From Methylicorpusculum oleiharenae (GTDB lineage: Bacteria; Pseudomonadota; Gammaproteobacteria; Methylococcales; Methylomonadaceae), in the NCBI RefSeq assembly GCF_009828925.2, contig NZ_WUTY02000001.1, forward strand, positions 3,254,492-3,318,491: DNA of 64,000 nt, read 5' to 3'. Position numbers and translations under genes: made by a program. The first letter of the stretch is position 1. Each line of letters opens with the position of its first letter. Below the pieces are notes generated by a model. That model saw only the letters and a program-made list of their open reading frames with translations, ran no database searches and was not told the origin of the DNA. This document shows, piece after piece, positions 3,278-17,420 of the stretch.

Positions 3278-3911
3278 GACACTTCTCCTGGTTGGTTTGT
3301 CAGATTGACCCCATTCTTGATGCTTTGGAGTCACCATCACTCATCAAAAGTGATATCAATCTTTATGCCAACCCAGAAAGACTCTATTAATAGACTCTTC
3401 ATCGATTTGGTCCCACCAAAACTGACAGATTTAGCAATTAAACTGTCAATTACGTCAGTAATTTGGCAGATGACGGGGTGGTCAGGCAGTGTTTGATTTG
3501 ATGAAACCGGGGCAGGTGCAGGCTTTTAGTAGAAATTAAAATGAACACACAAAAAGTCGAGCATCTTTAGTGTGCTGGTAATAAGCGTCGTTAGTTGTTG
3601 GCGCCAACAAAGCTCCAGAATCGGTAAATCCTGGCCTAGAGTTGTTGATGAGGGATTGATTATCGAAAAGTGCAGCGACTGTAAGCAAGGCGATCTGATT
3701 TCAAATGAGAAGGCTGTGCTGGATATTTTCCATAGACGCAGTTCTGCAAGCGATTTGTTTGGACGGTGTTAAATTATTTTACACTTGAGGATGGGGCGAT
3801 GCTAAAACTTTCGGGATTTTATTTGGATTTGTCTACTATGAAGTGAACATGAGCGGGTACGATTTTTTGCAAAAGTAGGCTGATTTATTTTTAAAATCAA
3901 TAGCATAAAAG
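3278..3911. other. Gene-free region left of the integrated element
   Basis: About 630 bp of AT-rich DNA with no open reading frame that has both a ribosome binding site and plausible composition. It ends at the 18-bp attachment-site repeat. I see nothing else in it. Confidence 0.4.
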
Positions 3912-3929
3912 TACTTGGCGGAGAGACAG
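3912..3929. repeat. Left attachment site (direct repeat of tRNA-Ser 3' end)
   Basis: TACTTGGCGGAGAGACAG is identical to 17326-17343. The left copy keeps only the tRNA 3' terminal part and continues into unrelated DNA (CCCGCCAAAC), as expected for the displaced attachment core. Confidence 0.85.
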
Positions 3930-4013
3930 CCCGCCAAACACAAAAACAGGTAAGTACAAGCTTGTCTATATTTAACGCAAAATCAAGAACTTATAAAAAT
4001 TGTAATGTCTCAG

Positions 4014-4138
4014 TAAGTCCAACTTAATCAACTAAAACCGCTCTAATCCATGTCAGGCAGTAGGGTTGGCAGTAGGGTTGGACTTACATAGACTAAGCCT
4101 TTTCTATACAATCGCCGTTTTAATCTTATGGGTTGGAC
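4014..4138. promoter_or_regulatory. Repeat-rich integrase upstream region (possible Int arm sites or operator)
   Basis: TAAGTCCAAC (4014-4023) is the reverse complement of GTTGGACTTA (4077-4086). GGCAGTAGGGTT occurs twice in tandem (4056-4067, 4068-4079), and GTTGGAC recurs at 4132-4138 just before the integrase ATG. Repeats of this kind beside an attachment site and integrase gene are usually recombinase arm sites or a regulator's operator; which one is inference. Confidence 0.45.
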
Positions 4139-5401
4139 ATGGCGAAGAAGATCAACAAACTTTCCGCGCGTTTAGTGGCTTCTCTCAAAGACCCCGGCCT
4201 ATACTCGGACGGACTCAACCTTTATCTTAGAGTTACAGCAGCCTTAAATAAAAACTATGTTTTTAAATATACCCGAAATGGAAAGACGCATGAAATAGGG
4301 TTGGGATCGGAAAGTAAAATTTCATTGGCCAGGGCGAGAGAAAAAGCAAAGGATTACATTGATATTCTTGACGCTGGACTGGATCCATTAACAGAAAAAC
4401 GCAAAAAGGATGAAACGGACAAACAGCAAGGCAAAATACTAACCTTCAGACAATGCGCCGAACAGTATATCGAGGCTAAAAGGTCAGGCTGGAAAAATCC
4501 AAAACATGTTCAGCAATGGGAAAACACTTTAAGCCAGTATGCTTATCCGGTTATTGGTGATACAGCTATCGCAGAAGTCAGCACAGAGTTAGTTCTACGC
4601 GTTCTATCGCCTATCTGGAACAGCAAAAACGAAACAGCAAGCCGGTTACGTGGGCGAATTGAAAACGTCTTGGATTGGGCCGCTGTGCAAGGTTTTAGGA
4701 GTCGTGAAAATCCGGCAGGCTGGAAGGGGCACTTAAGCAACTTGTTACCCGCACCAGCAAAAGTTCAAAAACCGGAGCATTTTAAGGCCGTCGACTATCG
4801 AGAGCTGCCGGACCTGATGACGGTTATTCGAAAAAATCAAAACCTATCGGCCAGGGCGTTAGAGTTTTTGATATTGACGGCATGCCGAACTAATGAGCTT
4901 ATCGGCGCAACCTGGGACGAAATAAACCTTAATGAAAAATTGTGGACGATACCCGGCGAACGCATGAAGGCAGGAAAGGAACACAGAATTCCATTATGCA
5001 ACCGGGCAGTTGAAATTCTTAAGTTTATGCGGCTGTTATCCCATGGCGATTATGTATTCGCTGGCAGATCGGCAGGCGGCAGGATGTCAACCGGCACGAT
5101 GGACACTTTCTTGCAAAGAACGCTAGGAATTGAGGCAACCGTTCACGGATTTAGGTCGTCGTTTCGCGATTGGGCATCGGAAGAAACAAGCGCAGCGCAT
5201 GAAGTGTGTGAAATGGCGCTAGCACATACCATAAAAAACAAGGCTGAATCAGCATACCGGCGCGGCGATTTACTCGACAAAAGGCGGGCGTTGATGGATG
5301 AGTGGGAATCATACCTTTATCAATACCCGCAGAAATTGCCGTACATTCTAAAAATAATTCAAATTCTTCAAAGATTGGCCATTAAAGCCGGTTATCAATA
5401 G
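4139..5401 (+). CDS. int: P4-type tyrosine recombinase / integrase
   Basis: A 420-residue site-specific recombinase expected to integrate and excise the element at the tRNA-Ser site. An N-terminal arm-binding domain (about 1-90, with the characteristic GLYSDGLNLYLRV segment) is followed by a core-binding domain (about 100-200) and the catalytic domain. The catalytic set is visible: R250 (ACRTNEL), H336-x2-R339 (HGFR), H363 (LAHT) and the presumed nucleophile Y373 (SAYRRG). ATG 4139 is preferred over an in-frame TTG at 4133 because the family begins MAKK/MA-type just before the arm domain. The length is normal for the P4 family. Confidence 0.95.
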   Translation: MAKKINKLSARLVASLKDPGLYSDGLNLYLRVTAALNKNYVFKYTRNGKTHEIGLGSESKISLARAREKAKDYIDILDAGLDPLTEKRKKDETDKQQGKILTFRQCAEQYIEAKRSGWKNPKHVQQWENTLSQYAYPVIGDTAIAEVSTELVLRVLSPIWNSKNETASRLRGRIENVLDWAAVQGFRSRENPAGWKGHLSNLLPAPAKVQKPEHFKAVDYRELPDLMTVIRKNQNLSARALEFLILTACRTNELIGATWDEINLNEKLWTIPGERMKAGKEHRIPLCNRAVEILKFMRLLSHGDYVFAGRSAGGRMSTGTMDTFLQRTLGIEATVHGFRSSFRDWASEETSAAHEVCEMALAHTIKNKAESAYRRGDLLDKRRALMDEWESYLYQYPQKLPYILKIIQILQRLAIKAGYQ

Positions 5402-5616
5402 AGCTTTTTCGCTCGAAATCTAAAGCTTAAAGTAATCAATAAGTTATCAGCTAAGGTTTTATTCTTTTTATAAGTCTTTGTTATAAAAAAGATAAATAGC
5501 CTTAAGGCTGGCTTAAATGTGCCAAAAATAAAAGGCGAAGCGCGGCCAAGCTTTCTATATAGTCTAAATCTGTTCGATTAACTCCCTTTACATTTATCAA
5601 ACGAGGAAACAAGCAG

Positions 5617-5859
5617 ATGACACCTAAAAAAGTTAAGAAAAATATCAACCTAAGACAAATGGATCCGGACTGTTTATTGCGGCTTGAACACATTGTTCCT
5701 GATGTCATACCGATAGCCAGAAGCACCTGGTACATGAAGATAGCAAACGGCAGCTTCAAAATTAAGGCCGTCTCACTGGGAGGAATGGCCAAAGCTTACC
5801 GCGTAAGGGATGTTTTGGCCTTGCTGGATGGTCTGCACGAGGTTGAGTTAAAGCCATGA
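5617..5859 (+). CDS. AlpA-family transcriptional regulator / excisionase-like
   Basis: An 80-residue protein with a MerR-like winged-helix motif: IVPDVIPIARSTWYMKIANG is the AlpA recognition signature, followed by FKIKAVSLGGMAKAYRVRDV. AlpA-type proteins control integrase expression or excision in P4-like elements. It has a GAGGAAAC ribosome binding site and lies 215 bp after the integrase gene, with its own terminator behind it, so it is probably a separate unit. Confidence 0.85.
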   Translation: MTPKKVKKNINLRQMDPDCLLRLEHIVPDVIPIARSTWYMKIANGSFKIKAVSLGGMAKAYRVRDVLALLDGLHEVELKP

Positions 5860-5876
5860 AACCAAAGTGACAGACA

Positions 5877-5920
5877 TAAAAAAACCCGGAAGCGATGAGA
5901 GCGCAAACCGGGCTTTTTAA
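5877..5920. terminator. Intrinsic terminator after the AlpA gene
   Basis: An A-run followed by CCCGG, a 20-nt loop with partial inner pairing, CCGGGC and a T-run. With A and T tracts on both sides it could act in both directions. Confidence 0.75.
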
Positions 5921-6130
5921 TACTTTCAAACTACCAGATAGGCCATTGGATAAAGGCCTATCTGAATATTAACACAATTTCACGAAAACACTAAGGAATT
6001 CAATGAAGAACTAACATTTTAAGCAAATGCCAGGCGATTAACCCGGCAAATCTTACAGCTACCACAACAACAACTCGACGGTTGAAATGGTAGCACAAAC
6101 TTATCTTTTTTGTAAAGGAATAATTTAAAA

Positions 6131-6592
6131 ATGTTACCAAATAACCGAACAACCTCAACAACAACCAGCTCAAACAAGCTTGATAATTTGCTTAACCGGC
6201 TTGAAAAAGTTAAGCAAATAAAACCCGGAAAATATAAGGCGTGCTGTCCTGCACATCAAGATAGATCGCCTTCGCTATATGTCACATACACCGACGATGG
6301 GAAAATATTAATGAAGTGCTTCGGGGGTTGCGATATTGAAAGCATTGTTTCAAGTATTGGACTCAAGCTGTGCGACCTGATGCCGGACAACCCGTTAAAC
6401 CCCTACGAAAAAAGGAAACGACCGCCAAAATTCAGCAAGTCAGAAATGTTTGACCGCGTTGTTTTCGAGGCTGTTATTTTGTCAGTTGCAGTTAGAGAAT
6501 TGTTAAAGGGGGAGACGTTGGCTGATGACGACATGGAGCGAATCTTAACCGCAGAAAGCACAATAAACGAAATTGCCAGGGAGGTTAGATAA
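6131..6592 (+). CDS. CHC2 zinc-finger protein (primase N-terminal type)
   Basis: A 153-residue protein carrying the DnaG/P4-type CHC2 zinc-binding motif: CPAH (C39, H42) and, after about 20 residues, CFGGC (C63, C67), with the usual DRSPSL and the following helix (DIESIVSSIGLKLCDL). It ends after the zinc domain, so the TOPRIM or AEP catalytic part is missing and must be supplied elsewhere. It lies directly before the DUF3987 gene (stop TAA abuts ATG), suggesting that the pair splits the functions of a fused primase-helicase. It probably initiates replication of the excised element. Confidence 0.85.
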   Translation: MLPNNRTTSTTTSSNKLDNLLNRLEKVKQIKPGKYKACCPAHQDRSPSLYVTYTDDGKILMKCFGGCDIESIVSSIGLKLCDLMPDNPLNPYEKRKRPPKFSKSEMFDRVVFEAVILSVAVRELLKGETLADDDMERILTAESTINEIAREVR

Positions 6593-8089
6593 ATGAGCAG
6601 GCTTGACAGTTTAAGAGATGAAAAACTGAATTCTCACACAGACCCGGGCGAAAGGGGCGAAAAGGGCGAAAACCTAGACGCGGCGGGGGTTGACGTGGGG
6701 CGAAAACCGGGTGAGCAGGGGCGAATGGGGGCGAAAAAAAGGCGGGAATTGGGCAAAAATGACTATTGTTCGCCCGAATATCCTGTAAATGGACTAGGAC
6801 CGCTCAAAGATTTATGTAAATCAATCAGCGAAAAAGCACAGCTTGACCCGGCTATGGTCGGACAGGCAATCATTACAGCGGCTTCACTGGTTACTCAAGG
6901 ATCCTATGAAGTTCAGACGTTATCGGGATATAAGCCCCTTTCACTTTACGGATTGACCATTGCTGAGTCTGGAGACGGAAAAAGTACAGCCGAGGGCATT
7001 GTTTTGCAAGGCGTTAGGGAGTTTGAGAAAGAAAAACATAACGGATATATGGAACGCATAGCTAATGAATCCGAGGAAAAAGGCAAAAAGAAGAACGCAC
7101 CGAGAGAAATTGAGCCTTATCTATTGGCCAGTGATTCCACTGTACAAGGTGTCATCAAAAGCTTTAAGACCGGATGGCCTTCTCAAGGTATCTTTACGGC
7201 AGAAGGTGCGACCATGTTATGTGGCTGGGGGATGTCAGGCGAGCAGCGAGCAAACAGTTCAGCGAACTTAAATAAATTGTGGGACGGTGAATCGATCGCG
7301 TTACAACGTGGCATTGAAGGCAGAACGCAGCTATATAACCGCCGGTTTTGCGCTCATTGGCTGATTCAACCGGACGTTGCACAAGAGGCGCTAAACGATT
7401 CAAATTTATCAGCTATTGGCTTATGGCCGCGTTTTTTAGTGGCATGGCCACAAGCATTAAAGCCGAGGCTATACAAATACTACGATTTTAAAAGTGACCC
7501 TGTAGTAACAAGTTTTTGGTCCGTCTGTAAAGATATATTGAGCGAGCAAGTTATTACAGGTGATGGTGAATGCGGGGAATTTTTCACACTCAAGCTAACA
7601 AGTGAAGCCAGGGCCATTTTAATAAAGACCTTTGAAAAAATGGAATTATCAAGAGATCCGTCCAACCCCCTGCACATCATAAAGCCTTTTGCCGTGAGGC
7701 TATGCGAGCAAGCGTGTCGAATTGGCGGCGTATTGGCGGCGTTCTCAGGTGAAAAAGAAATATCCGCAGAGACCATGAAAAACGCTTTACTTTTAGCGAA
7801 CTACAGTCTTGAAACGTGGCGCGGTATTTTTGGAACCCGCGAGGATATGACGCACGAACTATGGGCTAAAAATGTTTATGACTGGATGTCGAAACGGCCA
7901 GGCGGCAGAGCGAGCGAAACGGACCTTATCAAAACAGTTACGCCAAAACATTTAAGAACAGCTCACAAACGCGACACAGCTCTTTCAATATTGAGGGAAC
8001 GTGGGCTGATCGAAAAGGCGGTGGACTTTACCCCTGATGGCGTTATTAGGCTGAGTTTGAATGAATGGAAAATAGCTAATGGTCAATAA
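6593..8089 (+). CDS. DUF3987 replication ATPase
   Basis: A 498-residue protein. Residues 1-55 are low-complexity and charged (repeated GE/GEKGE). From about 65 onward it resembles DUF3987 proteins found in plasmids and satellites, with a Walker A-like SGDGKST (126-132), an ESGxGKS-type context, and a RecA-like core with FTAEGATML and WDGESIALQR segments. A C-terminal winged-helix-like part lies about 430-498. It is coupled to the zinc-finger gene. The repeat DNA encoding residues 17-60 may double as a replication origin. A helicase or primase-helicase role is inferred from context. Confidence 0.75.
   Translation: MSRLDSLRDEKLNSHTDPGERGEKGENLDAAGVDVGRKPGEQGRMGAKKRRELGKNDYCSPEYPVNGLGPLKDLCKSISEKAQLDPAMVGQAIITAASLVTQGSYEVQTLSGYKPLSLYGLTIAESGDGKSTAEGIVLQGVREFEKEKHNGYMERIANESEEKGKKKNAPREIEPYLLASDSTVQGVIKSFKTGWPSQGIFTAEGATMLCGWGMSGEQRANSSANLNKLWDGESIALQRGIEGRTQLYNRRFCAHWLIQPDVAQEALNDSNLSAIGLWPRFLVAWPQALKPRLYKYYDFKSDPVVTSFWSVCKDILSEQVITGDGECGEFFTLKLTSEARAILIKTFEKMELSRDPSNPLHIIKPFAVRLCEQACRIGGVLAAFSGEKEISAETMKNALLLANYSLETWRGIFGTREDMTHELWAKNVYDWMSKRPGGRASETDLIKTVTPKHLRTAHKRDTALSILRERGLIEKAVDFTPDGVIRLSLNEWKIANGQ
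6646..6775. repeat. GGGGCGAAA repeat cluster 1 (possible iterons)
   Basis: Six direct copies of GGGCGAA or GGGGCGAA start near 6646, 6654, 6664, 6697, 6718 and 6727, with one inverted copy (TTCGCCC) at 6769, all inside the 5' part of the DUF3987 gene. A second cluster of the same word lies after the gene. Clusters of a short word beside replication genes behave as iterons in P4 and many plasmids. The origin role is inferred. Confidence 0.55.
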
Positions 8090-8366
8090 TTTAAACGCTG
8101 ATATTTTATTAAAGGGCGAATTAAGGGGCGAAACTCGCCCTTTTTCGACTTTTTTTCGCCCCGGCTCAGACCGCGTCATTGCTGAACTTTCGCCCCTTTC
8201 GCCCCTTTCGCCCCGGCTCAATAAAAACATCAAAAACAGCGGTTTTTTTATCGATGACCGGCGATTCTGCAAAGACTGCAAAAACCTAAACAGTAGGGAC
8301 TATTGCACCAAACAAAAATTTAAACCGGTCGATGACATGCCCCGTCGATGCGTTGATTTTATTTAA
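8079..8366 (+). CDS. Small zinc-finger-like protein, 95 aa
   Basis: ATG 8079 overlaps the end of the DUF3987 gene by 11 nt. The C-terminal half has four cysteines in a compact pattern: FCKDCKNL, DYC, and RRCVDF (C-x2-C-x8-C-x17-C approximately), so a structural zinc site is likely. The N-terminal half is low-complexity (SPLSPLSPR) because the DNA underneath is the second GGGGCGAAA cluster. The start codon has no strong ribosome binding site; coupling to the upstream gene would explain expression. Similar short Cys-rich proteins follow phage replication genes; the function is unknown. Confidence 0.6.
   Translation: MVNNLNADILLKGELRGETRPFSTFFRPGSDRVIAELSPLSPLSPRLNKNIKNSGFFIDDRRFCKDCKNLNSRDYCTKQKFKPVDDMPRRCVDFI
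8114..8214. repeat. GGGGCGAAA repeat cluster 2 (possible iterons)
   Basis: Direct copies lie at 8114-8120 and 8125-8133, an inverted TTTCGCCCC at about 8154-8162, and three perfect tandem inverted 9-mers (TTTCGCCCC) at 8188-8196, 8197-8205 and 8206-8214. This is the mirror of cluster 1 across the DUF3987 gene. Confidence 0.6.
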
Positions 8367-8398
8367 TGGCACTAACAACAATTTAAAGGTGAAAGATT

Positions 8399-8662
8399 AT
8401 GAGCAGCAAATTATTAGAGGGTAGTTTTTTTCATACATTTTGTGATGATGGCCAGGTCAAATGGCAGGGCGAATTTTTAAAAGAGTTTGATGATGGCCGT
8501 TATTTAATACAGCTTTTTTCATGGATTGACGGACGCCCAACAATTCAAAAAATCATAACAGGCAAAGAAACTATTGGAATGAGTATCTACCCTACAGCGG
8601 AAAGCATGGATTTAGCCTGGGAATTGATTACAAAGTCGTTTGATGGTGGCTTATTATCATGA
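8399..8662 (+). CDS. Hypothetical protein, 87 aa
   Basis: A soluble 87-residue protein beginning MSSKLLEGSFFHTFCDDGQV with a beta-rich pattern (VKWQGEFLKEF, YLIQLFSWIDG), reminiscent of a small barrel. AGGTGAAAGATT precedes the ATG. Its stop overlaps the helicase start (ATGA), so it belongs to the replication operon. I do not recognise the family; single-strand binding or helicase loading would be a guess. Confidence 0.6.
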   Translation: MSSKLLEGSFFHTFCDDGQVKWQGEFLKEFDDGRYLIQLFSWIDGRPTIQKIITGKETIGMSIYPTAESMDLAWELITKSFDGGLLS

Positions 8663-9993
8663 AATTAACCCTATCAAACAAAATTGAAATTTCCGGCATT
8701 GACTCCGAGTTACTGGAAACCATCGAAAAGCATTGTATACACAGTAATCCAGCATACTGGGAGGCGAAGAAACAAGGGCGCTATACTGGTGACGTTGACA
8801 GATTCATAAATTTATCAGAGCGCACCGAAAACGGATTAATTGTTCCTATCGGTTTACTTGATTATCTTCGCGGCTTAGGTGGCTCAGAATTAGCCGACAA
8901 CCGGAATATGCACCCGTTATCAATACCCTTTAACGGAAAGTTACGCGACTATCAGAAACAAATTGTTATTGATGCCAGAAAGGCGAAGGCAGGCGTAATT
9001 GTCGCAGCAACCGGAGCAGGCAAAAGCATTTCAGGAATTGCATTGGCGGCCAGGCTAGGACAAAGAACGCTGATATTGGTTAAGAGCAGAGACCTTGCAA
9101 ACCAATGGAAAGAAGCAATAAAACAGTACACCGGGCTTGATGCTGGCTTGATCGGCGGAGGCAAGTGTACAGAGGGCGCAGAGTTCACGATAGGGATTGT
9201 TCAGACGTTGGTTAAGCGCGATTGTTCAGAACTTAATTATGGCTTGGTTATCGGTGACGAGATCCACAATGCACCGGCGAGCCAATTCTATAACGTAATA
9301 GGCAGCATAAACGCCCGTTACAAATTCGGATTGAGCGCAACACCACAGCGGCGAGACAGTCTTGAATTTATGATCTTCGCGGCAGTTGGGCCGATATGCG
9401 CGACCGTCAGCACGGAGCAGTTAACTAATAAGGTTTTGCCGGTAGAAGTGAAGAGTTATAGCGTTCCTTTTGATGCAAACGTCGAGAGCTGGCAGGAATT
9501 TATTAGCGAGCTGATAGACAACGATTCACGAAACGACTTTATTGTAAGGGCAGCGAAGCATTACCAGGCGGCACCAATAATCATTTTATGTAGTCAGGTC
9601 CGGCATTGTGAAATCTTAACGACCTTGACGCGTGAGGCTGGTTTAAACCCATTACTTATACATGGGCAACTACCAGCAAAAGAACGCTTAGAGCGCATGG
9701 AGCAAGCAAAAACGGCACGATTAATCATAGGGACAGCTCAATTATTAGGTGAAGGAATAGACTTACCCCAATTAGAAGTTTTGATATTCGCGGTTCCTAT
9801 GAGCGCAGTTATTGACAAGTCAGGTGACCCGGCAGCAACAAAGCTTATCCAGTCAATCGGCAGATGCAGAAGGCCGCACCCCGGAAAGATAAACGCGTTA
9901 GTGATTGATATTGTCGACAAGTGCGGTTTTGGTGTTGCGGCTTATAAAAAGCGATTACATATCTATAAAATGCAGGGCTTTAAAACTATTTGA
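8659..9993 (+). CDS. SF2 DEAD/DEAH-type helicase (UvsW/XPB-like)
   Basis: A 444-residue two-RecA-domain helicase. Visible motifs: LRDYQ (Q-like, about 95), Walker A ATGAGKS (117-123), motif Ia LVKSRDLANQW, motif II DEIH (200-203), motif III SATP (226-229), and in domain 2 LIHGQLP, GTAQLLGEGIDLPQL and motif VI QSIGRCRR (near 415). The organisation is like UvsW and XPB remodelling helicases of phages and plasmids. It overlaps the preceding gene by 4 nt and probably acts in replication or branch migration of the element. Confidence 0.9.
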   Translation: MKLTLSNKIEISGIDSELLETIEKHCIHSNPAYWEAKKQGRYTGDVDRFINLSERTENGLIVPIGLLDYLRGLGGSELADNRNMHPLSIPFNGKLRDYQKQIVIDARKAKAGVIVAATGAGKSISGIALAARLGQRTLILVKSRDLANQWKEAIKQYTGLDAGLIGGGKCTEGAEFTIGIVQTLVKRDCSELNYGLVIGDEIHNAPASQFYNVIGSINARYKFGLSATPQRRDSLEFMIFAAVGPICATVSTEQLTNKVLPVEVKSYSVPFDANVESWQEFISELIDNDSRNDFIVRAAKHYQAAPIIILCSQVRHCEILTTLTREAGLNPLLIHGQLPAKERLERMEQAKTARLIIGTAQLLGEGIDLPQLEVLIFAVPMSAVIDKSGDPAATKLIQSIGRCRRPHPGKINALVIDIVDKCGFGVAAYKKRLHIYKMQGFKTI

Positions 9994-10002
9994 GGTTTTA
10001 GA

Positions 10003-10449
10003 TTGGCCAGGCAACCCGACAAAGACTATCAGTTAAAACTTTCCATTGAAGAACTTAAACGTGTTCTGCTTCTTAAAGAAAACCAATTCTATTGGCTATG
10101 CAGCTACTCACTCATACCAGGACTAACACCCGCAGCCGGGCGAATGGTTGACGGCCGGGAGGTGATGAGGATCGGCGGCAAGTTGTACAGCACCGAGGCA
10201 TTGAAGCATTTTTATCAGTGCGGTGAGTGGCCGAGCGGATGCCGGGAGGCAGAGCCAGAACAGACACAGTCATTTTATCCGAGGTCAAAACATCGCGGGG
10301 TTTGTTGGGCCTATGGAAAATGGGTTGCAAAGGTTCGCATATCCGGAAGGATGAAGCAGCTTGGAAGCTTTACCGACGAAAACGAGGCCGCTCGAATTGT
10401 TCAGGAAACCTTAGAGCAATTAAGGCAGGGCAGTTATCAAGCTAGATAG
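10003..10449 (+). CDS. AP2-domain DNA-binding protein
   Basis: A 148-residue protein with a C-terminal AP2-like domain: SKHRGVCWAYGKWVAKVRI, then LGSFTDENEAARIVQETL. This is the GV-W...W-A-I...LG-F-T-EEAA pattern of AP2 domains, here without the HNH nuclease that usually accompanies it in phages. The N-terminal part (1-90) has a helix-turn-helix-like stretch and a short motif resembling HNH-associated regions. The start is a TTG at 10003, supported by GAGG 7 nt upstream. It follows the helicase by 9 bp. Confidence 0.7.
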   Translation: MARQPDKDYQLKLSIEELKRVLLLKENQFYWLCSYSLIPGLTPAAGRMVDGREVMRIGGKLYSTEALKHFYQCGEWPSGCREAEPEQTQSFYPRSKHRGVCWAYGKWVAKVRISGRMKQLGSFTDENEAARIVQETLEQLRQGSYQAR

Positions 10450-10711
10450 TTTCTTATGTTTTTTGTAACTGGAATTATAAGAAAGATAAAGGATGATAAG
10501 AAAATGTTTTATTTATCAATGGGTTAGAAGGGGGTAGGGCCTCTTACTTTTCAAAGACTTAACCTTTGCTGTTCACGCCCGAAAGCTTTCTCACGCGAGC
10601 CATAAATTGGACACAAAAAGCCCAACAAAAACAAGCACTTACAAAACCCTTATAAATCAGCAACTTACGCCAATTCTATTGAATATCCTTTATAAATCAA
10701 TGAGTTAGCAG

Positions 10712-11173
10712 TCACAGCGTGCAATGGTTGCGGCAAGGCTGGCGAATATGACGGCGAGTGACTTTAGAGGTAACCAGCATGTGCTTACGGCAAATTTGCC
10801 GGAAGCTAAAACATCCCAAACTCAAGCGGCAGAACTTTTGAACGTGTCGGAGCGTGCAATGGTTGCGGCAAGGCTGGCGAATATGACGGCGAGTGACTTT
10901 AGAGGTAACCAGCATGTGCTTACGGCAAATTTGCCGGAAGCTAAAACATCCCAAACTCAAGCGGCAGAACTTTTGAACGTGTCGGAGCGTGCAATGGTTG
11001 CGGCAAGGCTGGCGAATATGACGGCGAGTGACTTTAGAGGTAACCAGCATGTGCTTACGGCAAATTTGCCGGAAGCTAAAACATCCCAAACTCAAGCGGC
11101 AGAACTTTTGAATGTGTCAGAGCGGCTAATTCATTATCTTTTGGCCTGGATAATGGATAACAAGCGCAAATAG
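10712..11173 (+). pseudogene. Remnant of a ParB-like/phage regulatory gene with a 3x tandem repeat
   Basis: An open frame from ATG 10724 to 11173 encodes three copies of a 45-residue unit, MVAARLANMTASDFRGNQHV... to ...AAELLNVSERA, then LIHYLLAWIMDNKRK. The unit resembles the middle of a family of phage/plasmid regulators in which RAMVAARLANM leads to a TQAAELLNVSER helix-turn-helix. An in-frame TAG lies 15 nt upstream of ATG 10724, no ribosome binding site precedes it, and both normal ends of the family are missing. So it looks like an internally duplicated fragment rather than an intact gene. Confidence 0.6.
10724..11128 (+). repeat. Three tandem 135-bp repeats
   Basis: Copies at 10724-10858, 10859-10993 and 10994-11128. 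The first two appear identical, and the third diverges only in its last about 25 bp (GAACGTGTCGGAGCG becomes GAATGTGTCAGAGCG). The unit length is a multiple of three, so the frame stays open on the + strand through all copies. The near identity points to a recent duplication. Confidence 0.9.
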
Positions 11174-11534
11174 AATCGGGTAAGCCTGGGCGTTAGTAAC
11201 GCTACTATTAAGAAACAATTAAATCCCTAGCTTGAACTATGGCCACAATGCTATAGCCTACGAATATCAATGGCTACAGCCGGGCACGAAATATGCAATG
11301 GACGAAATGCTTGATTGTTTACTATTTAGAGTATAATAAATTAACCGTTCGAGAGAGTCAGACGGCCAAAGACCGGAGGGAGTCCGGCACCGAGTAAGGC
11401 GTTTCAGGGGGATCCTGAACCGCAGACAAGTTTCAACCCTGAGAGAGTCAGATAGAAGTTAGTCAACCCGTAACACTTACAGCGGAGTTGATCGTTCAAC
11501 CCGTTCAAATTTAACTAGCCAAAAAGGTTAAAAA
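11174..11534. promoter_or_regulatory. Structured untranslated leader before the capsid gene
   Basis: No credible gene in 361 bp. It holds a direct repeat GAGAGAGTCAGA at 11351-11362 and 11441-11452 (90 bp apart). Between them lie two hairpins: CCGGA/TCCGG with a 5-nt loop (11373-11387) and TTCAGG/CCTGAA with a 5-nt loop (11403-11419). A leader RNA, a regulator binding region or a packaging-type site are possible. I recognise no known RNA family. Confidence 0.4.
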
Positions 11535-12869
11535 ATGAACAGAATTTTAGAAAGGCACAGCAACACATTTGCATTATTTATCGCGTTATCAATTATCACG
11601 TTGGCGGTATTCGGTTTTGACGTTGACGCGGCAGTCATCAACCAACACGGCGATTTATTCGGTGCGGCTGGCTTGGCCTTCGCTGGATGCGGTAGCGTTG
11701 GCGATATTCATAAAATATCTGAAGCCGTCGACATTATCGAAAATAAGATAAACAAGTTTCATGACCAGGCTGAAAAGCAGTTGCAGGAAACCGGCAAAGT
11801 CAGCACCGAAACCAAAAACGCATTGGAAAAGTTCCAAGAAAAACAGTTAGAAATTGCAGACCGCCTGCTATACCTGGAGCAAAAAGGCGTTAGTGGCGGC
11901 GGTATGGGCGGCGACACCCCGCGCCAAAGCGGTTGGGGTTCGCAGATCGTAAAGAACCAAAACCTTAAAGAATTGTTATCCGGTTCGCGTCAAAAAATAC
12001 GCGTTGAAGTTCAGAATAACACCTTGACCGGTTCAGATACCACAGCGGCACCCATGAGAAAGCCGGGTGTTGTAGCGGGCGGTTTTGCGCCGTTAACTTT
12101 AGAATCATTGTTCCCACACTTTCCGACTACAGAAGCGGCGATTGAATTCACGCGTGAAAATGTGTTCACCAACTCAGCAGCAGAAGCGGCAGAAGGCGCA
12201 CAGAAGGCCGAGTCCGCGATAACCTGGACCTTAGTCAATCAACCGGTTAGCACAGTGGCGCACTGGCTTAAAATCAGCAAACAGTTAGCCGCTGATAATC
12301 AGTTATTGGCCGCCTATGTAAACGCGCGGTTAAGTTTTGGTGTCAATCGCAGAGTTGAGACTCAACTTGCAGCGGGTGACGGCACCGGCGCGAACATTGG
12401 CGGAATTCTGAAATCTGGGAACCATGTAGTACATGCCTATGATGATGCGACACTGGGCAGCGGCTTGAAAAAGCATAAATTGATTCGGCGCATTATTGCT
12501 GACATGAAGAGCGGCGGCTTTATGCCCTCAGCGGTTTTAATGAATCCGGCGGATTGGTTATTGTTTGACTTGGATCTATTGGACAGCGTACCGGCGACAA
12601 TCACGGCGCAAGATATTGCGGGAGGTTTTGAACCGAGAATATTCGGCGTTCCTGTCGTTGAATCAATCGGTGTTACGGCTGATAGCTTCGCTGTTATTGC
12701 GCCACAATTAGGCGTTATTCATGATCGGCAGGCGGTTGAGGTCGAGATCTCAGATTCAGACGGCGACAACTTCACCAAGAACCTGTTAACTATTCGCGCC
12801 GAAAGACGCTTAGCTTTTTGCGTTGAACAACCAGCGGCGGCGCGTGGGGGCGACTTATCACCCGTTTAG
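11535..12869 (+). CDS. HK97-type major capsid protein with N-terminal hydrophobic segment
   Basis: A 444-residue protein. Residues about 11-33 are strongly hydrophobic (TFALFIALSIITLAVFGF), unusual for a capsid protein. A helical delta-domain-like segment follows (about 58-118, SEAVDIIENKINKF onward), then a Gly-rich linker (SGGGMGGDTP) where prohead proteases normally cut. From about 170 comes the HK97 fold signature: FTRENVFTNSAAEAAEGAQK, VAHWLKISKQLAADN, YVNARLSFGVNRRVE, LAAGDGTGANIGGIL, then P-domain and A-domain strands (VLMNPADW, FGVPVVES). The start is fixed by AAGG at the right spacing, and no later in-frame ATG lies before the delta domain. No protease, portal or terminase gene is nearby. 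Confidence 0.85.
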   Translation: MNRILERHSNTFALFIALSIITLAVFGFDVDAAVINQHGDLFGAAGLAFAGCGSVGDIHKISEAVDIIENKINKFHDQAEKQLQETGKVSTETKNALEKFQEKQLEIADRLLYLEQKGVSGGGMGGDTPRQSGWGSQIVKNQNLKELLSGSRQKIRVEVQNNTLTGSDTTAAPMRKPGVVAGGFAPLTLESLFPHFPTTEAAIEFTRENVFTNSAAEAAEGAQKAESAITWTLVNQPVSTVAHWLKISKQLAADNQLLAAYVNARLSFGVNRRVETQLAAGDGTGANIGGILKSGNHVVHAYDDATLGSGLKKHKLIRRIIADMKSGGFMPSAVLMNPADWLLFDLDLLDSVPATITAQDIAGGFEPRIFGVPVVESIGVTADSFAVIAPQLGVIHDRQAVEVEISDSDGDNFTKNLLTIRAERRLAFCVEQPAAARGGDLSPV

Positions 12870-12889
12870 ATCTGGTTAATTCTCAATTT

Positions 12890-12914
12890 ATGGCCTGGAA
12901 TTTATCCGGGCCAT
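12890..12914 (+). other. Hairpin between capsid and coiled-coil genes
   Basis: ATGGCC (12890-12895) pairs with GGCCAT (12909-12914), with further GGA/TCC pairing inside. No T-run follows, so it may limit read-through or protect the mRNA rather than terminate. Confidence 0.4.
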
Positions 12915-12936
12915 TCTTGCCAAAAGGTAAAATTTT

Positions 12937-13428
12937 ATGTTCAACGTAAACGCACTACTCGAAAATTCAGACCTGGTAGACGGACTTATCAAGCAGGACC
13001 TTAGCGACAAATCAGCAAAGAAAAAAACTATCTTGGCTGATATGAAGAAACTTAAAACCGAAATGGCAGGCTTAAACCTGGGCTCGGTGCAAGTGTCACA
13101 GGAAAAGCTTAACAAGGCGCGGGTGGCCTATGAGAAGGCTCAAAGCGATTATCAGGACTTGCTGTTATCAGCGAACCAGAAACGCCGAATTTTGGAAAAG
13201 CGGTTACAAGCCAATGAATTAGAACTCAGGACGCTGGAGCCGCTCATTGTCCAAAGACTACGCAGCAAGTTAACCGAACGATTGCATCAATTAGGTTTTT
13301 TGACTCCGGAGCGTTCGCAGCGACTGCACAAGGTGACAGAAGAAATTGAAAGCTTTACCCGCGTTGATGATGCTGAGGCTATAGCCAGGCGCGTTCCTAT
13401 TTTGGAAGATAGAATCTTAGAGATTTAA
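12937..13428 (+). CDS. Coiled-coil protein after the capsid gene (candidate scaffold)
   Basis: A 163-residue, very charged, almost wholly helical protein. Residues about 25-110 give a heptad-like pattern (KKKTILADMKKLKTEMAG, KARVAYEKAQSDY, RILEKRLQANELELRTL). It has no Cys and no membrane segment. It directly follows the capsid gene and is closed by an intrinsic terminator, so capsid and coiled-coil protein appear to form a two-gene unit. A scaffold or capsid-size factor would fit that position, but this is inferred from place and shape only. Confidence 0.6.
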   Translation: MFNVNALLENSDLVDGLIKQDLSDKSAKKKTILADMKKLKTEMAGLNLGSVQVSQEKLNKARVAYEKAQSDYQDLLLSANQKRRILEKRLQANELELRTLEPLIVQRLRSKLTERLHQLGFLTPERSQRLHKVTEEIESFTRVDDAEAIARRVPILEDRILEI

Positions 13429-13443
13429 AAGTTAAGCCAGGGG

Positions 13444-13480
13444 AAAGCCGGTTATCTGCAAAGGTAGCCGGTTTTTTTTT
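13444..13480 (+). terminator. Intrinsic terminator after the capsid unit
   Basis: AAAGCCGG pairs with CCGGTTTT (one G-T wobble), with inner TATC/GGTA pairing, followed by an unbroken run of nine or more T. Confidence 0.8.
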
Positions 13481-13661
13481 GCTTATCTGCAATTCGGAAA
13501 AAAAGAAATATCCGTTATAAAACAATGACTTAGTTAATATTTTTGCTTGACTGGTAAATTATTTTTGTAAGTTGGGGTTTACAAGAATTATAAAAAGGTC
13601 TACATTTAAGGCGTTGTTAATAAAGCAACACGGGCTAGCATCTCGTTGCAAACGGCGCAAA

Positions 13662-13686
13662 AGCCGCTATATGTGGCTATTTTTTT
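13662..13686 (+). terminator. Intrinsic terminator upstream of the C4-like RNA
   Basis: AGCCGC, loop TATAT, GTGGCT, then ATTTTTTT. It would stop a short transcript begun in the 13.5 kb region, as in the premature-termination control of P4 and P1 C4/CI systems. Confidence 0.65.
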
Positions 13687-13718
13687 GCGTAAAATATTCA
13701 GCTCTTCATTTTGTCGGG

Positions 13719-13776
13719 CTGTGTGGATCACTCGAAAGGGTGGCCGGTCCGTTTGCCGGTATGCTAGTTCACACAG
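13719..13776 (+). ncRNA. C4-like antisense regulatory RNA candidate
   Basis: CTGTGTG (13719-13725) pairs with CACACAG (13770-13776) as a closing stem. Inside are a GAAA-capped hairpin (CACTC GAAA GGGTG) and a second CCGG/CCGG hairpin, giving a three-way-junction shape. The sequence style and position, upstream of an operon in a P4-like element and next to an intrinsic terminator, recall the C4/CI antisense RNAs of P1, P7 and P4. No covariance-model search was possible, so family membership is inferred. Confidence 0.5.
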
Positions 13777-13833
13777 TCCGGCGCCATACTTAGCATTGTG
13801 GCTCCGGGTTTATTTACAAACGGAGCGCATATC

Positions 13834-14967
13834 ATGAACTCAAAAACCAACCCCGCAAACAATTTCACAGCACAAGTTTACGTCGATAAAGAAGCCGCAC
13901 TATTGGCCGGACGGGACCATTTTGGAAGCGTTGACATCCAATTTAAACCTTCCGAATTATCCGAAACACACCGAAAAACTCTACTATCTGTCAATTACAA
14001 AATCACTCGCAGCGACACCGGCGCACCGATAACCGGAGCAGAAACCCTGGAAGCATTGCTTGATGCAGTCAAAGCAAATTATGACAAAAAAGCCGAAATC
14101 GAAAGCCAGGAATTAAGCGCGGCTGTTCAGTTTGTCACCAATCGCTTAAAGACGGCACCGGCAGCGGATGACTTGACTATTGACGCTGAAGGGCTAGTAA
14201 AAGTGACCAGCAAACCAGACTCACTTATCAAAATCAGTATGGGTTCAGTTACTAAAGAATATCGTCAGGCTAATTTTTATGACACTTGGGGGCCTGGAAT
14301 ATATCGGACGGACCACAGAAGAAATCAGTTACGCGAAATCATTAACGCAGATCCTGAGATTTTAAAGTTATTTGATGAGCTTGACGCTGTAGCTGATGGA
14401 ATAACCGAGCGATTAAAGGCAGCACAGGCAACCAGGGACGCTATACGGGAGGCAAACTATCAGGAGCAAGCCAAAGCACAGCTAAGCAGAACCGCACAGA
14501 TTAAACAGTTTGTTATTGATTACATGGGCGAACTTGCAATCGACCGTTATAACGATGGACTGATGCAGGAAGCCGAGATCCTGGAAGCAATGACGGCTAA
14601 AACCTTTAACGAAATCGACCAGCACTTTACCCCAGTTGACCGGGCGGCGTTCCTTGCTGAAGCGGTAGACTTTTGTTGTGACTGCGTACATGAAACGGGC
14701 TGGAGTGGGCGCATTATTGAACGCGACCTGGAGACCGTAACAGATGACCAATACAAGCGACTTCATGAGCTGAGAACGTTGACAAAGTTTTTAAGAGACT
14801 TTGAGCCAATAACAGTAAAACCGTTTTTATTGACTGGCTACCTTGACAACTTTGCAGACGATGACGACCCGGAATACCGCACAGTTGCGGCACTCGTAAC
14901 TGTCATGCGCGGGGATATTGAACTATCACGGGAGTACAGTCTAAACAGCGTTGAGGGGGCGGAATGA
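13834..14967 (+). CDS. Hypothetical satellite protein, 377 aa
   Basis: ATG 13834 has CGGAG 8 nt upstream; a GTG at 13798 is less likely. The protein starts MNSKTNPANNFTAQVYVDKE and is soluble and acidic, with a helical coiled stretch near 190-230 (LDAVADGITERLKAAQATRD) and a Cys pair FCCDC near 275. I recognise no domain. It is the first gene of a tightly packed operon that runs to 17.2 kb, each next gene overlapping by 4 nt. In P4-like elements this place holds early regulatory or anti-host genes. Confidence 0.65.
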   Translation: MNSKTNPANNFTAQVYVDKEAALLAGRDHFGSVDIQFKPSELSETHRKTLLSVNYKITRSDTGAPITGAETLEALLDAVKANYDKKAEIESQELSAAVQFVTNRLKTAPAADDLTIDAEGLVKVTSKPDSLIKISMGSVTKEYRQANFYDTWGPGIYRTDHRRNQLREIINADPEILKLFDELDAVADGITERLKAAQATRDAIREANYQEQAKAQLSRTAQIKQFVIDYMGELAIDRYNDGLMQEAEILEAMTAKTFNEIDQHFTPVDRAAFLAEAVDFCCDCVHETGWSGRIIERDLETVTDDQYKRLHELRTLTKFLRDFEPITVKPFLLTGYLDNFADDDDPEYRTVAALVTVMRGDIELSREYSLNSVEGAE

Positions 14968-15386
14968 AAAAGCCAATAACCAACCGCGTATTTATTCAAC
15001 CGCTGGCAAGTCTCACGCCAGAAGAGCAGGAATCCCAGCAAGAAAGAGCACTCGAAGCCTTTAACCAGAACCGTCTTGAGCTGGCAACCGAAAGACGGAA
15101 GGCATGCCAAAAAGGCGAACCGGCATTGCACCGACTCGTTAAGGTGGCCAGACATGACACAGGCCAAAGTCTGATTATTCGGCGGTTTTTGTTGGGGTTG
15201 TACAACGGCTATCAGCATAAATTTAGCTTAACCGAACTCAGAAATCTGGATAAACAGCTCTTTTACGATTGTTTAGCGGTTTTGATACTGGATGCCAGGG
15301 TAACGGCGCAAGAAATTCATTTATACGTTGAACAGGGTGATTATCTGTTTGCAGAATGGGCCGATTCGGTAAGGGGGCGTGTATGA
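14964..15386 (+). CDS. DUF7673-like protein
   Basis: A 140-residue protein with the pattern I associate with DUF7673: ALHRLVKVARHDTGQS, RRFLLGLYNGYQHKFSLTEL, RNLDKQLFYDCLAVLILDAR and a C-terminal EQGDYLFAEWAD. Members occur in proteobacterial integrative elements and plasmids; the biochemical role is unknown. Its ATG overlaps the upstream stop by 4 nt and its own stop overlaps the next ATG (ATGA). Confidence 0.65.
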   Translation: MKKPITNRVFIQPLASLTPEEQESQQERALEAFNQNRLELATERRKACQKGEPALHRLVKVARHDTGQSLIIRRFLLGLYNGYQHKFSLTELRNLDKQLFYDCLAVLILDARVTAQEIHLYVEQGDYLFAEWADSVRGRV

Positions 15387-15883
15387 GCATAGAATTCTTA
15401 AATGCAGCGTTTAGAGCCCCTTTAACCGGCGCAAGTAAGGCGGTATTAATTGCGCTTGCTGATAGATGCAACGATGCCGGTTATTGTTACCCAGCGTTAA
15501 AAGATATTGCTTTACGCGCTGGAGTATCGGCCAGAACAGCAACACGCGCAGTTAAAACGCTAGAGGATAGCGGCTATTTAGCAATAATTCGAGTAATGGG
15601 AGCAACGAACAAATATATTTTATTGGCCGGTAAATTGACCGAAAACTTATACACAACCTTAGACAAAAGCAATTATCCACAGATAGACACGAGTTCTAAC
15701 CCCTTAGACATGATGTCACTAGGGGCTGGACATGAGCGCGGGGAGGGGCTGGACATGGTGTCTAATAAACCATCATATAACCACCAATTAACCACCAAAG
15801 AACCATTAATTGGCAAACGGAAAAGCCAAAAAAGAACGATAGAAATTAGAAAAATGCGCGGCTTGTTGAGGTTGGCAAAATGA
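15383..15883 (+). CDS. Winged-helix (HTH_36-type) DNA-binding protein
   Basis: The start is ATG 15383, behind AAGGGGGCG and overlapping the previous stop; an upstream in-frame ATG would lengthen the overlap. Residues 1-80 are a replication-initiator-like winged helix: KAVLIALADRCNDAGYCYPA, then IALRAGVSARTATRAVKTLE and GYLAIIRV. The C-terminal 80 residues are polar and probably disordered. Such proteins in satellites act as replication initiators or repressors; the sequence does not tell which. Confidence 0.7.
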   Translation: MSIEFLNAAFRAPLTGASKAVLIALADRCNDAGYCYPALKDIALRAGVSARTATRAVKTLEDSGYLAIIRVMGATNKYILLAGKLTENLYTTLDKSNYPQIDTSSNPLDMMSLGAGHERGEGLDMVSNKPSYNHQLTTKEPLIGKRKSQKRTIEIRKMRGLLRLAK

Positions 15884-16413
15884 AAAACTTGCTTACACAA
15901 GAACGATTGAAAGAATTGCTGAGATACGACCCTGAAACCGGCATGTTTACTTGGTTGGCATCACCGGCTAATAGCGTTAAGGTTGGCGCGATTGCTGGGA
16001 GCGTTAACGGCAAAGGTTATATTCATATCAAGATAAACAGCAAGACTTACAGAGCGCACCGTTTAGCATTTTTTTATCACTTTGGCCGATGGCCTAAAAA
16101 TGATGTTGACCACATGAACGGCGTTAAAACAGACAACCGGATAGAAAACCTTAGGGATGCGAATAAATCAGAGAATCAACAGAACAGAGGTGTTCAATCA
16201 AATAATACTAGCGGCTATATGGGCGTTTCTTATGATAAGCGTAAGAAAAAATGGAAAGCAGAGATAATGATAAACAGGAAAACTAATCGCTTAGGCAGAT
16301 TCAGCACGCCAGAAGAAGCCCATGCCGCTTATCTATCCGCAAAAAAGGAACTACACACCTTTCAACCAACCCCGAGAGCAGCGCATCAAGAAGGCGGCGA
16401 GGTGCAATCATGA
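15880..16413 (+). CDS. HNH endonuclease with AP2 domain
   Basis: A 177-residue protein with the usual phage order: an N-terminal region (YDPETGMFTWL and GYIHIKINSKTYRAHRLAF), an HNH core (DVDHMNGVKTDNRIENLRDA, with the paired His and Asn residues), and a C-terminal AP2 domain (TSGYMGVSYDKRKKKWKAEI, then LGRFSTPEEAHAAYLSAK). This is the classical HNH-AP2 homing-endonuclease family, which nicks or cuts DNA and spreads between phage genomes. It overlaps its neighbours by 4 nt on both sides, so it is embedded in the operon rather than interrupting a gene. Confidence 0.9.
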   Translation: MKNLLTQERLKELLRYDPETGMFTWLASPANSVKVGAIAGSVNGKGYIHIKINSKTYRAHRLAFFYHFGRWPKNDVDHMNGVKTDNRIENLRDANKSENQQNRGVQSNNTSGYMGVSYDKRKKKWKAEIMINRKTNRLGRFSTPEEAHAAYLSAKKELHTFQPTPRAAHQEGGEVQS

Positions 16414-16562
16414 AATTATCATTAATCAAAAACGGAAAAGTCATTGCATACATACGCACCGCCGATTTAACCGGGCCTATCCTGCTTGATCTTCAAAACC
16501 GCGGTTATTTATTGGGCATTGGGCCTTTAAACTATTTTGAAGTAATGACGGCGGCAGCATGA
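16410..16562 (+). CDS. Small hypothetical protein, 50 aa
   Basis: A short gene between two ATGA overlaps: its ATG (16410) overlaps the HNH stop, and its stop (16560-16562) overlaps the next ATG (16559). The product starts MKLSLIKNGKVIAYIRTADL, ends NYFEVMTAAA and looks like a small beta-alpha domain. The perfect overlaps on both sides are the main evidence. Function unknown. Confidence 0.65.
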   Translation: MKLSLIKNGKVIAYIRTADLTGPILLDLQNRGYLLGIGPLNYFEVMTAAA

Positions 16563-16795
16563 ACAACGAGCCATTACAGACAGGATTTACCGACTACTTA
16601 GGGAGCACCTGGAGCCAAGCCAGTATCGACACTTACAACCGCTTCAATGACGAGGTAGTTAAACGTCTGCACTATTGGGACATGCCGAAAGAATCAGAAT
16701 GTTACAAGGAACTTCAATTTTACCTTGACCAAAGACATAAAACTTTTATTCAGTTATGCGAGGTGTCGAGATCCACAAATAAGGGGGCCTTATGA
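16559..16795 (+). CDS. Hypothetical protein, 78 aa
   Basis: A soluble helical protein beginning MNNEPLQTGFTDYLGSTWSQ, rich in aromatic residues (YW, YLD). It sits in the coupled operon with 4-nt overlaps at both ends. No recognised domain. Confidence 0.6.
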   Translation: MNNEPLQTGFTDYLGSTWSQASIDTYNRFNDEVVKRLHYWDMPKESECYKELQFYLDQRHKTFIQLCEVSRSTNKGAL

Positions 16796-16995
16796 GTAAC
16801 CCATTACAAAACTTGGTCTGTAATGGACCCGACGAACTTGTAAAAGCCGGTTATGAAATCTATTCACGGAATATTAACGCACAAGAACAATTCTGTATAA
16901 GCGATGGGCTAATGTATGCTGGCATTTATGGCCTTGTTACAGGCGTAATAGTGGGGCTTATGATAGCCTTGTTTTATAGGGAGTCAGGCAGCTAG
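16792..16995 (+). CDS. Small membrane protein, 67 aa
   Basis: One clear membrane helix at about residues 41-61 (MYAGIYGLVTGVIVGLMIAL), with a polar N-terminal half (MSNPLQNLVCNGPDELVKAG) and a short charged tail. GGGGG upstream acts as ribosome binding site. In a satellite operon, a one-helix protein could be a superinfection or holin-like factor, but nothing specific shows this. Confidence 0.6.
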   Translation: MSNPLQNLVCNGPDELVKAGYEIYSRNINAQEQFCISDGLMYAGIYGLVTGVIVGLMIALFYRESGS

Positions 16996-17024
16996 TTTTA
17001 ACTTTAACGATGAGGAATTAATTG

Positions 17025-17225
17025 ATGATTGACTACAAAAAGGCCAGGTGTATATCAGAACCGCGCGGAAACTTTGGACTTGGCGATTATCAACGAGGGG
17101 AAAGTTACCAATTTTATTTTGATGAAAAAAAGAGGTATTACCACATTTTCCCGGTTCAGGGCGACCAGTACGCGGAGCGAGTGCACGAAAGGCATTTTAA
17201 GCGGTTCTTCACACTGGAGGCGTAA
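17025..17225 (+). CDS. Hypothetical protein, 66 aa (last gene of the element)
   Basis: ATG 17025 is chosen because GAGGA lies 8 nt upstream; a TTG sits one codon earlier. The protein, MIDYKKARCISEPRGNFGLG onwards, is basic and rich in Tyr and Phe (YQFYFDEKKRYYHIF), probably a small beta-rich fold. It is 100 bp from the right attachment site. No family recognised. Confidence 0.55.
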   Translation: MIDYKKARCISEPRGNFGLGDYQRGESYQFYFDEKKRYYHIFPVQGDQYAERVHERHFKRFFTLEA

Positions 17226-17325
17226 ACAATAACGACTGTAACCCATGTTATCCAATGGGGTTGGAATGTGGGTTGATCCTTTCAGGTAAATCAAAAAACC
17301 TTGTAAATCAATAACTTAGAGGTGC

Positions 17326-17343
17326 TACTTGGCGGAGAGACAG
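17326..17343. repeat. Right attachment site within tRNA-Ser 3' end
   Basis: Second copy of TACTTGGCGGAGAGACAG. Fourteen of the 18 bases (17330-17343) belong to the tRNA gene, so integration leaves the tRNA intact. Confidence 0.85.
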
Positions 17344-17420
17344 AGATTCGAACTCTGGGTGGGCTATTAACCCACGACGGTTTTCAAGACCGCTGCCTTA
17401 AACCACTCAGCCATCTCTCC
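17330..17420 (-). tRNA. serT: tRNA-Ser (anticodon UGA)
   Basis: The reverse strand reads a complete class II tRNA: acceptor GGAGAGA paired with TCTCTCC, D arm, anticodon loop CTTGAAA (anticodon TGA), long variable arm (GTGGGTTAATAGCCCAC), T arm with GTTCGAATC, discriminator G and an encoded CCA end. It is the integration target of the element to its left. The gene symbol follows E. coli usage for tRNA-Ser(UGA). Confidence 0.95.

Follow-up and report, generated by a model that had tools for sequence, protein, structure and literature searches.

What a satellite of about 13 kb may gain from a single capsid gene, when no genes for filling a head accompany it, is the question raised by a locus in Methylicorpusculum oleiharenae. 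The window analysed here is the whole stretch of 64,000 nucleotides (contig NZ_WUTY02000001.1, positions 3,254,492 to 3,318,491), of which positions 11535–12869 (plus strand) encode a major capsid protein (MCP) of the HK97 type, 444 aa in length and assigned by Pfam, PHROGs, NCBIfam and alignment to HK97 gp5. A preliminary description of the sequence had listed an integrase, AlpA, replication genes and one MCP with no packaging set, an inventory that was borne out by Pfam, PHROGs, hhalign and blastp.

The MCP gene belongs to an integrated element of 13.4 kb (13,414 bp; 3912–17343) at a tRNA-Ser gene. An 18-bp direct repeat bounds the element, with attL at 3912–3929 and attR at 17326–17343; attR coincides with the 3' end of the tRNA-Ser gene (17330–17420, minus strand). 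All genes that follow are on the plus strand. The left part encodes a tyrosine integrase (4133–5401; PF00589, PF22022, PF13356; phrog_1), an AlpA-like regulator (5617–5859), a primase zinc-ribbon protein (6131–6592; PF01807, 7.2e-06), a DUF3987 replication helicase (6593–8089; PF13148, 1.4e-58; phrog_2373), an SF2 helicase (8659–9993; Pfam/PHROGs) and an HNH/AP2-like protein (10003–10449; phrog_99, 2.6e-09). The AlpA-like ORF had no direct Pfam match and was assigned via blastp to its AlpA-like counterparts in the sister elements L095 and L097, both of which match PF05930. Downstream lies a triplicated 135-bp unit with a helix-turn-helix fragment (10711–11124; copies 97–100% identical), probably a recent amplification of a gene fragment. 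The MCP gene is followed by cc163 (12937–13428), a coiled-coil-like partner kept beside satellite MCPs, and then by o389 (13798–14967; no family assigned, common to sister elements), a DUF7673 protein (14964–15386; PF24720, 9.2e-26), a replication-initiation O-like (repO-like) protein (15356–15883; phrog_391, 4.6e-14) and an HNH/AP2 homing-type endonuclease (15880–16413; PF13392, PF00847); small ORFs are also part of the element. With its integrase, AlpA-type regulator, replication genes, att sites and size near 10–15 kb, the element shows the traits of a PICI-like satellite. Neither Sid nor Psu, of the P4 gene set, was named by Pfam or PHROGs in it.

Comparison with two congeneric genomes, both of which lack any match to the window MCP, placed the end of right-flank homology at window positions 17328 and 17316; the left flank differs in both, and the empty attB is visible on the right flank only. 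The tRNA was the sole RNA family matched by Rfam at the gathering threshold. The non-coding interval 11340–11480, upstream of the MCP gene, holds two copies of GAGAGAGTCAGA and is likewise without an Rfam match. PADLOC, run on 10 proteins, returned only general helicase, restriction-helicase and homing-endonuclease matches, and no defence genes. The same genome harbours two further elements (L095 and L096, at about 0.59 and 4.22 Mb of C1) that share the o389, DUF7673 and repO-like genes; no MCP match was found in either, and their middle genes are mostly without assignment.

Among 19 ORFs searched with Pfam and PHROGs within the element, none was recognised as a portal, large terminase, protease or tail gene. 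When 11 unassigned or small window proteins were compared by hhalign with portal, terL, U35, ClpP and S49 profiles, probabilities did not exceed 1.8, while a control comparison using three distant portals reached 99.5, and hidden packaging genes in the window were rejected on the basis of these five head and packaging profiles. This includes the interval at 13.8–17.2 kb, in which the preliminary description had allowed for such genes and where profile searches found none. The sole terminase-small-subunit match (phrog_57, 0.00024) fell on the triplicated helix-turn-helix fragment, no stretch of which passes alone, leaving no credible TerS match in the element among the PHROGs profile families. 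A tblastn search for a protease remnant with ClpP and S49 proteins gave chance matches only (best E 0.30).

The capsid gene itself is intact. Its product matches Phage_capsid (PF05065, 1.1e-26), the PHROG major head protein (2.4e-35) and NCBIfam major_cap_HK97 (6.6e-21), and aligns to nearly all of HK97 gp5, delta domain included (query 58–439 to chain 4–379, 4.9e-49). It thus resembles gp5 in its full-length alignment, its delta domain and its cross-linking residues, and is unlike gp5 in its setting, gp5 being part of a complete phage head operon. The delta (scaffold) domain comprises about residues 58–118 (11706–11888) and, at 61 residues, equals in length that of all ten close phage MCPs and both Methylomonas satellite MCPs for which it was printed. 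Residues K224, N416 and E423 of the window MCP, counted on the gp5 alignment, align with K169, N356 and E363, which we take to be the cross-linking residues of HK97; the triad is therefore complete, as it largely is among the 92 non-satellite MCPs, of which 87, 89 and 89, respectively, keep each residue.

Ahead of the delta domain, residues 1–57 (11535–11705) form a hydrophobic N-terminal extension, or leader, whose best 17-residue stretch reaches KD 2.58, compared with at most 1.48 in the remainder of the protein. The reading frame opens with ATG at 11535, preceded a few bases upstream by AAGG, and the only in-frame alternative starts before the delta domain are TTG codons at residues 23 and 47; an internal true start that would remove the leader was rejected on these grounds. 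The hydrophobic start is also conserved in relatives. The membrane-type helix of the preliminary description is thus real, but it is not specific to satellites: in a survey with mechanically called starts, 24 of 99 distinct MCPs began with a hydrophobic extension, in which an A-x-A-like motif was frequent, and seven of them were satellites. Leader-bearing MCPs thus come from phages as well as the seven satellites. In phages, signal-peptide-like leaders are scattered over the tree and occur in otherwise ordinary head operons that include terL, portal and protease (L004, L046, L120 and L123). Since ordinary phage head operons have it, the leader lends no specific support to interference at the membrane, and we regard it as belonging to ordinary head assembly in these hosts rather than as an anti-phage device. 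Among 20 leaders compared by z scores from 200 shuffles, those of the Methylomonas satellites had as their closest non-satellite counterpart the phage MCP of the metagenome-assembled genome (MAG) G258 (z 8.4–9.2; next phage 3.5–5.1), despite the body of the G258 MCP falling in another clade than the satellites. The window leader was without this likeness to G258, its best match being satellite L083 (z 6.1) and its best non-satellite match L046 (z 4.1). Possibly, the G258 contig, of 29,625 bp, is a phage that was binned along with the MAG.

We compared the gene neighbourhoods of MCP relatives. In viral contigs, 38 of 80 loci extended at least 4.2 kb upstream of the MCP gene; portal and protease were found in all 38 and terL in 31. 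Of 30 genome loci, 24 qualified, with portal and terL in 21 and protease in 22, the exceptions being L130 (the satellite of Methylomonas sp. LW13), L133 and L134 (Burkholderiales). As the reference proteins came from phages in the same set, terL was likely missed in divergent loci. In an MCP tree built by a quick method from 119 rows (99 distinct), the satellite MCPs formed one clade (SH-aLRT 100) on a long stem (0.46) within phage diversity.

Across the host's family, MCP relatives were present in 7 of 237 genomes. In six of these genomes, namely that of the host and five assigned to genus g11 (to which Methylomonas LW13 belongs, itself among them as G194 with locus L130), the MCP stands without portal or terminase, at seven loci. 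In the seventh, MAG G258, the MCP lies in a phage locus together with portal, terL and U35 protease, and cc163 is absent there. The gene cc163 follows the MCP gene in all seven satellite loci and is absent from all phage loci fetched, and a ClpP-type head protease, its family assignment tested on L101 (phrog_133, 8.4e-71), lies upstream of the MCP gene in 6/6 Methylomonas loci. The window cc163 is only 25–28% identical to its Methylomonas counterparts. We found no known relative of cc163 in family databases and none in viral contigs; a scan of 369 genomes of the class gave three weak matches beyond the own genome, in short loci without an MCP match, and the family and order scans gave one (G213) and two (G135, G159) weak matches, respectively. 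In four Methylomonas loci (L098, at 4862–6511, L099, L102 and L130) cc163 precedes a tape-measure-like gene of 549 aa (phrog_28, 6.6e-54, as tested on L098; dN/dS 0.09–0.17), in place of which G166 (L101) carries a tail assembly gene resembling lambda gpI (phrog_32). In L100 (Methylomonas sp. LW13), resolvase- and transposase-like genes, named by eye, lie between cc163 and the tape-measure-like gene (6263–9792).

The four elements with defined ends measure 13.1–13.7 kb and occupy three different tRNA sites: besides the 13,414 bp of the window element at tRNA-Ser, these are an element of 13,663 bp with its repeat beside tRNA-Leu (G087) and two at tRNA-Met, of 13,097 bp (G166) and 13,273 bp (G071). 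Their replication genes also differ, being of the DUF3987 type in the window, a primase with a large unassigned protein in G087, and a primase-polymerase (tested on the G182 copy) in the tRNA-Met group. Size and the MCP–cc163 pair are thus constant, while integration sites and replication genes vary. From this constancy across differing backbones we naturally infer, albeit from as few as four elements, that a small head sets a size limit near 13 kb. The LW13 element is larger, at 19,903 bp (19.9 kb), and an insert of about 6.2 kb separates its cc163 from the tail gene; by subtraction of this insert, it would measure about 13.7 kb. The ends of both G182 copies were searched for and not found.

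Among the Methylomonas copies, dN/dS, where computable, was 0.08–0.20 for the MCP, 0.04–0.29 for cc163 and 0.10–0.31 for ClpP, and by this measure all three are under purifying selection. Between the window and Methylomonas dS is saturated, with an MCP dN of 0.44–0.47, and the MCP cassette does not have the look of a recent relic. The cross-linking positions nevertheless set the Methylomonas satellites apart from the window: all six distinct MCPs have A or S at the K position and G at the N position, and one has V at the third (E) position. Phage-conserved columns are broken at 9 of 85 positions in the window MCP and 13–15 of 85 in the Methylomonas satellites, compared with 0–8 of 74–91 in 42 close phages; this count, repeated with each query and its near relatives left out, is inflated for the satellites by their greater overall divergence. 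Because cross-linking residues are lost and conserved columns broken, we conclude that the satellite MCPs evolve under altered constraint, with the window MCP the least altered.

We also looked for a resident helper. The portal family PF04860 and the terminase family PF03354 were found in one of the eight genomes searched (G258) and the portal family PF05136 in none, so that the six satellite genomes lack all three. A resident helper in the satellite genomes was accordingly rejected for the three portal and terminase families searched, and a helper would probably come from outside the host genomes.

Our preferred reading, to which we give about even odds, is that the satellite supplies its own head shell and borrows the packaging machine and tail from a helper. 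On infection by a helper siphophage, the element would excise and replicate using the integrase and replication genes that it encodes. The MCP, with its leader, delta scaffold and HK97 core, would then join cc163 in building a procapsid of a size to hold about 13 kb, nucleated on the helper portal. The remaining parts (portal, terminase, connectors and tail) would come from the helper. Maturation of the shell would fall, in the six Methylomonas loci, to the satellite's own ClpP-type protease, whereas the window element, lacking one, may use the helper protease or leave its shell uncleaved. Mobilisation, shell formation, capsid size, the role of cc163 and the identity of the helper are what we infer in this scheme. 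Retention of a protease without portal and terminase suggests a shell-forming role rather than a merely disturbing one. Several observations weigh against the supply of a shell: the window element is without its sisters' protease and could be a reduced form; cc163 has no known relative and shows only 25–28% identity to its Methylomonas counterparts; the constant size is drawn from four elements, the LW13 element being larger; and the Methylomonas MCPs have lost two cross-linking residues, which would also fit a minor, Ccm-like subunit. More tentatively, and with somewhat less than even confidence, these elements may constitute a "shell-only" class of satellites. An old satellite-specific cassette (an HK97 MCP and a coiled-coil size-setter, with or without ClpP) would have been maintained in differing backbones with size fixed near 13 kb; the satellite shell would close on the helper portal, combining a satellite wall with the helper's motor and tail; and the signal-like leader, alike in the Methylomonas satellites and the G258 phage MCP, would direct the two MCPs to a common site of assembly.

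The main rival to a shell of the satellite's own is a mixed shell of the kind formed with Ccm of SaPIbov5, which we regard as possible but rather unlikely. Here, the satellite MCP could not build a shell alone, and would enter helper capsomers (e.g., pentamers), shrink the helper's heads and hinder the helper. Ccm itself is reported not to suffice for making shells on its own and to be located in the pentamers (PMC8569155), and the missing protease of the window element, as in SaPIbov5, the absent K and N of the Methylomonas satellite MCPs and the excess of broken columns, lowest in the window, would all be consistent with such a subunit. It fits less well with the full-length delta domain and core of the window and Methylomonas MCPs, with the whole cross-linking triad of the window MCP, with the head protease kept in six sister loci, or with cc163, for which no counterpart is described for Ccm. 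The preliminary description had proposed either own small shells filled by helper machinery or remodelling of helper capsids, and this remains the best-supported reading; its further suggestion of interference at the membrane gained no specific support.

That the locus is a remnant, i.e., a prophage or satellite that has shed most structural genes with an MCP lingering or reused otherwise, seems improbable to us. The missing protease, the triplicated gene fragment upstream and the congeners without the element would agree with decay, but the ORFs and att sites are intact, the same MCP–cc163 pair recurs in seven loci with MCPs of one clade, dN/dS among the Methylomonas copies is well below 1, and no portal, terL or protease remnants were found. 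The decay expected of a defective prophage, with broken or relaxed structural genes and traces of lost ones, was accordingly not observed. We give slightly less credence still to pure interference, in which the MCP would be a decoy, or its leader would poison helper assembly at the membrane, with no role in transfer. The presence of the leader, and its resemblance to the G258 phage leader in the Methylomonas satellites, could be taken in this sense; however, leaders are found in ordinary phage head operons, that of the window lacks the G258 likeness, and the head protease and constant element size would be left unexplained.

A lone satellite MCP is a strategy already known, since Ccm of SaPIbov5 has been published. 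Ccm, a homologue of HK97-fold MCPs that includes a delta domain, is encoded by a satellite (related to the cos-type SaPIs) without an identified protease; its proven role is size redirection, and it shares about 24% identity with the helper CP but has the shorter delta domain of the two (PMC8569155, PMC5052747), by 44 residues as modelled (PMC5052747). The window element resembles SaPIbov5 in combining an HK97-fold MCP and its delta domain with the lack of portal and large terminase. It differs in that the delta domain is not shortened and the MCP is full length, reaches as much as 55% identity with phage MCPs and is paired with cc163, plus the ClpP protease in the sisters. Further isolated capsid genes have been described in the Gram-negative PICIs EcCICFT073, with a capsid homologue and a decoration protein, and PmCI172, with an MCP homologue (PMC6092414), as well as the Vibrio PISP TG93, with capsid E, a protease and TerS (PMC13230959). 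The statement in the preliminary description that capsid-forming satellites carry a packaging set is contradicted by the lone MCPs of SaPIbov5 (PMC8569155, PMC5052747), EcCICFT073 and PmCI172 (PMC6092414). EcCICFT073 is described as packaged in full-sized capsids despite its capsid homologue (PMC6092414), so that small heads do not follow from such a gene alone, which also counts against the supply of a small shell in the present case. The window element shares with these three the isolated capsid gene; it differs from TG93, which has a capsid of the PF03864 type and TerS, and a cc163-like partner is mentioned for none of the three in the accessible accounts. The capsid-forming PICIs (cfPICIs) are described as carrying a full set (PMC10690885, PMC11389934), comprising MCP, protease, portal, connectors, both terminase subunits and HNH endonuclease (PMC10690885). 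Like them, the window element encodes its own HK97-type shell protein; unlike in them, no portal, large terminase or head protease was found in it, the last being present in the Methylomonas sister loci. Rcm and Tai are described as other satellite strategies (PMC12409344, PMC11364771).

A literature search, with subscription journals thinly covered, found no report of these elements, of the MCP–cc163 pair or of MCP leaders. What is new here is the conserved MCP–cc163 cassette, cc163 itself, the varying backbones and an independent case in Burkholderiales. A satellite with only a shell would be a middle form between those that bend helper capsids and those with full head and packaging sets, and it makes testable the question of the fewest head parts that a parasite must own to control head size. 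In addition, cc163 is a candidate size-determining protein for HK97-type heads, and attention is drawn to phage MCPs that start with a signal-peptide-like leader.

The Burkholderiales case is a separate lone-MCP element of 8.7 kb (L134, 3515–12244; MAG contig JAUXYA010000014.1), with a 45-bp repeat whose copies lie at 3515 and 12200 (the second at tRNA-Asn), primase genes and a TerS match (phrog_83, 1.3e-7). Its MCP is of the HK97 type (phrog_10, 1.4e-41) with a short delta domain, 32 residues compared with 61 in the others, and no portal match was found among the reference proteins. With this element, the lone-MCP strategy has probably arisen more than once: here, in SaPIbov5 as published, and again in Burkholderiales. 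Closer to the host, in its own family, element L103 (G175) resembles the window element in its satellite backbone of o389, repO-like, AlpA-like and integrase genes and in its incomplete head set; unlike the window, it has an S49 protease (phrog_53, 8e-97) and a lambda decoration protein D (PF02924, 2.9e-34), and no MCP match. This element (G175:C99) has 20-bp repeats 10,710 bp apart, near tRNA-Leu, and three LWDK-type repeats in the tail of its protease.
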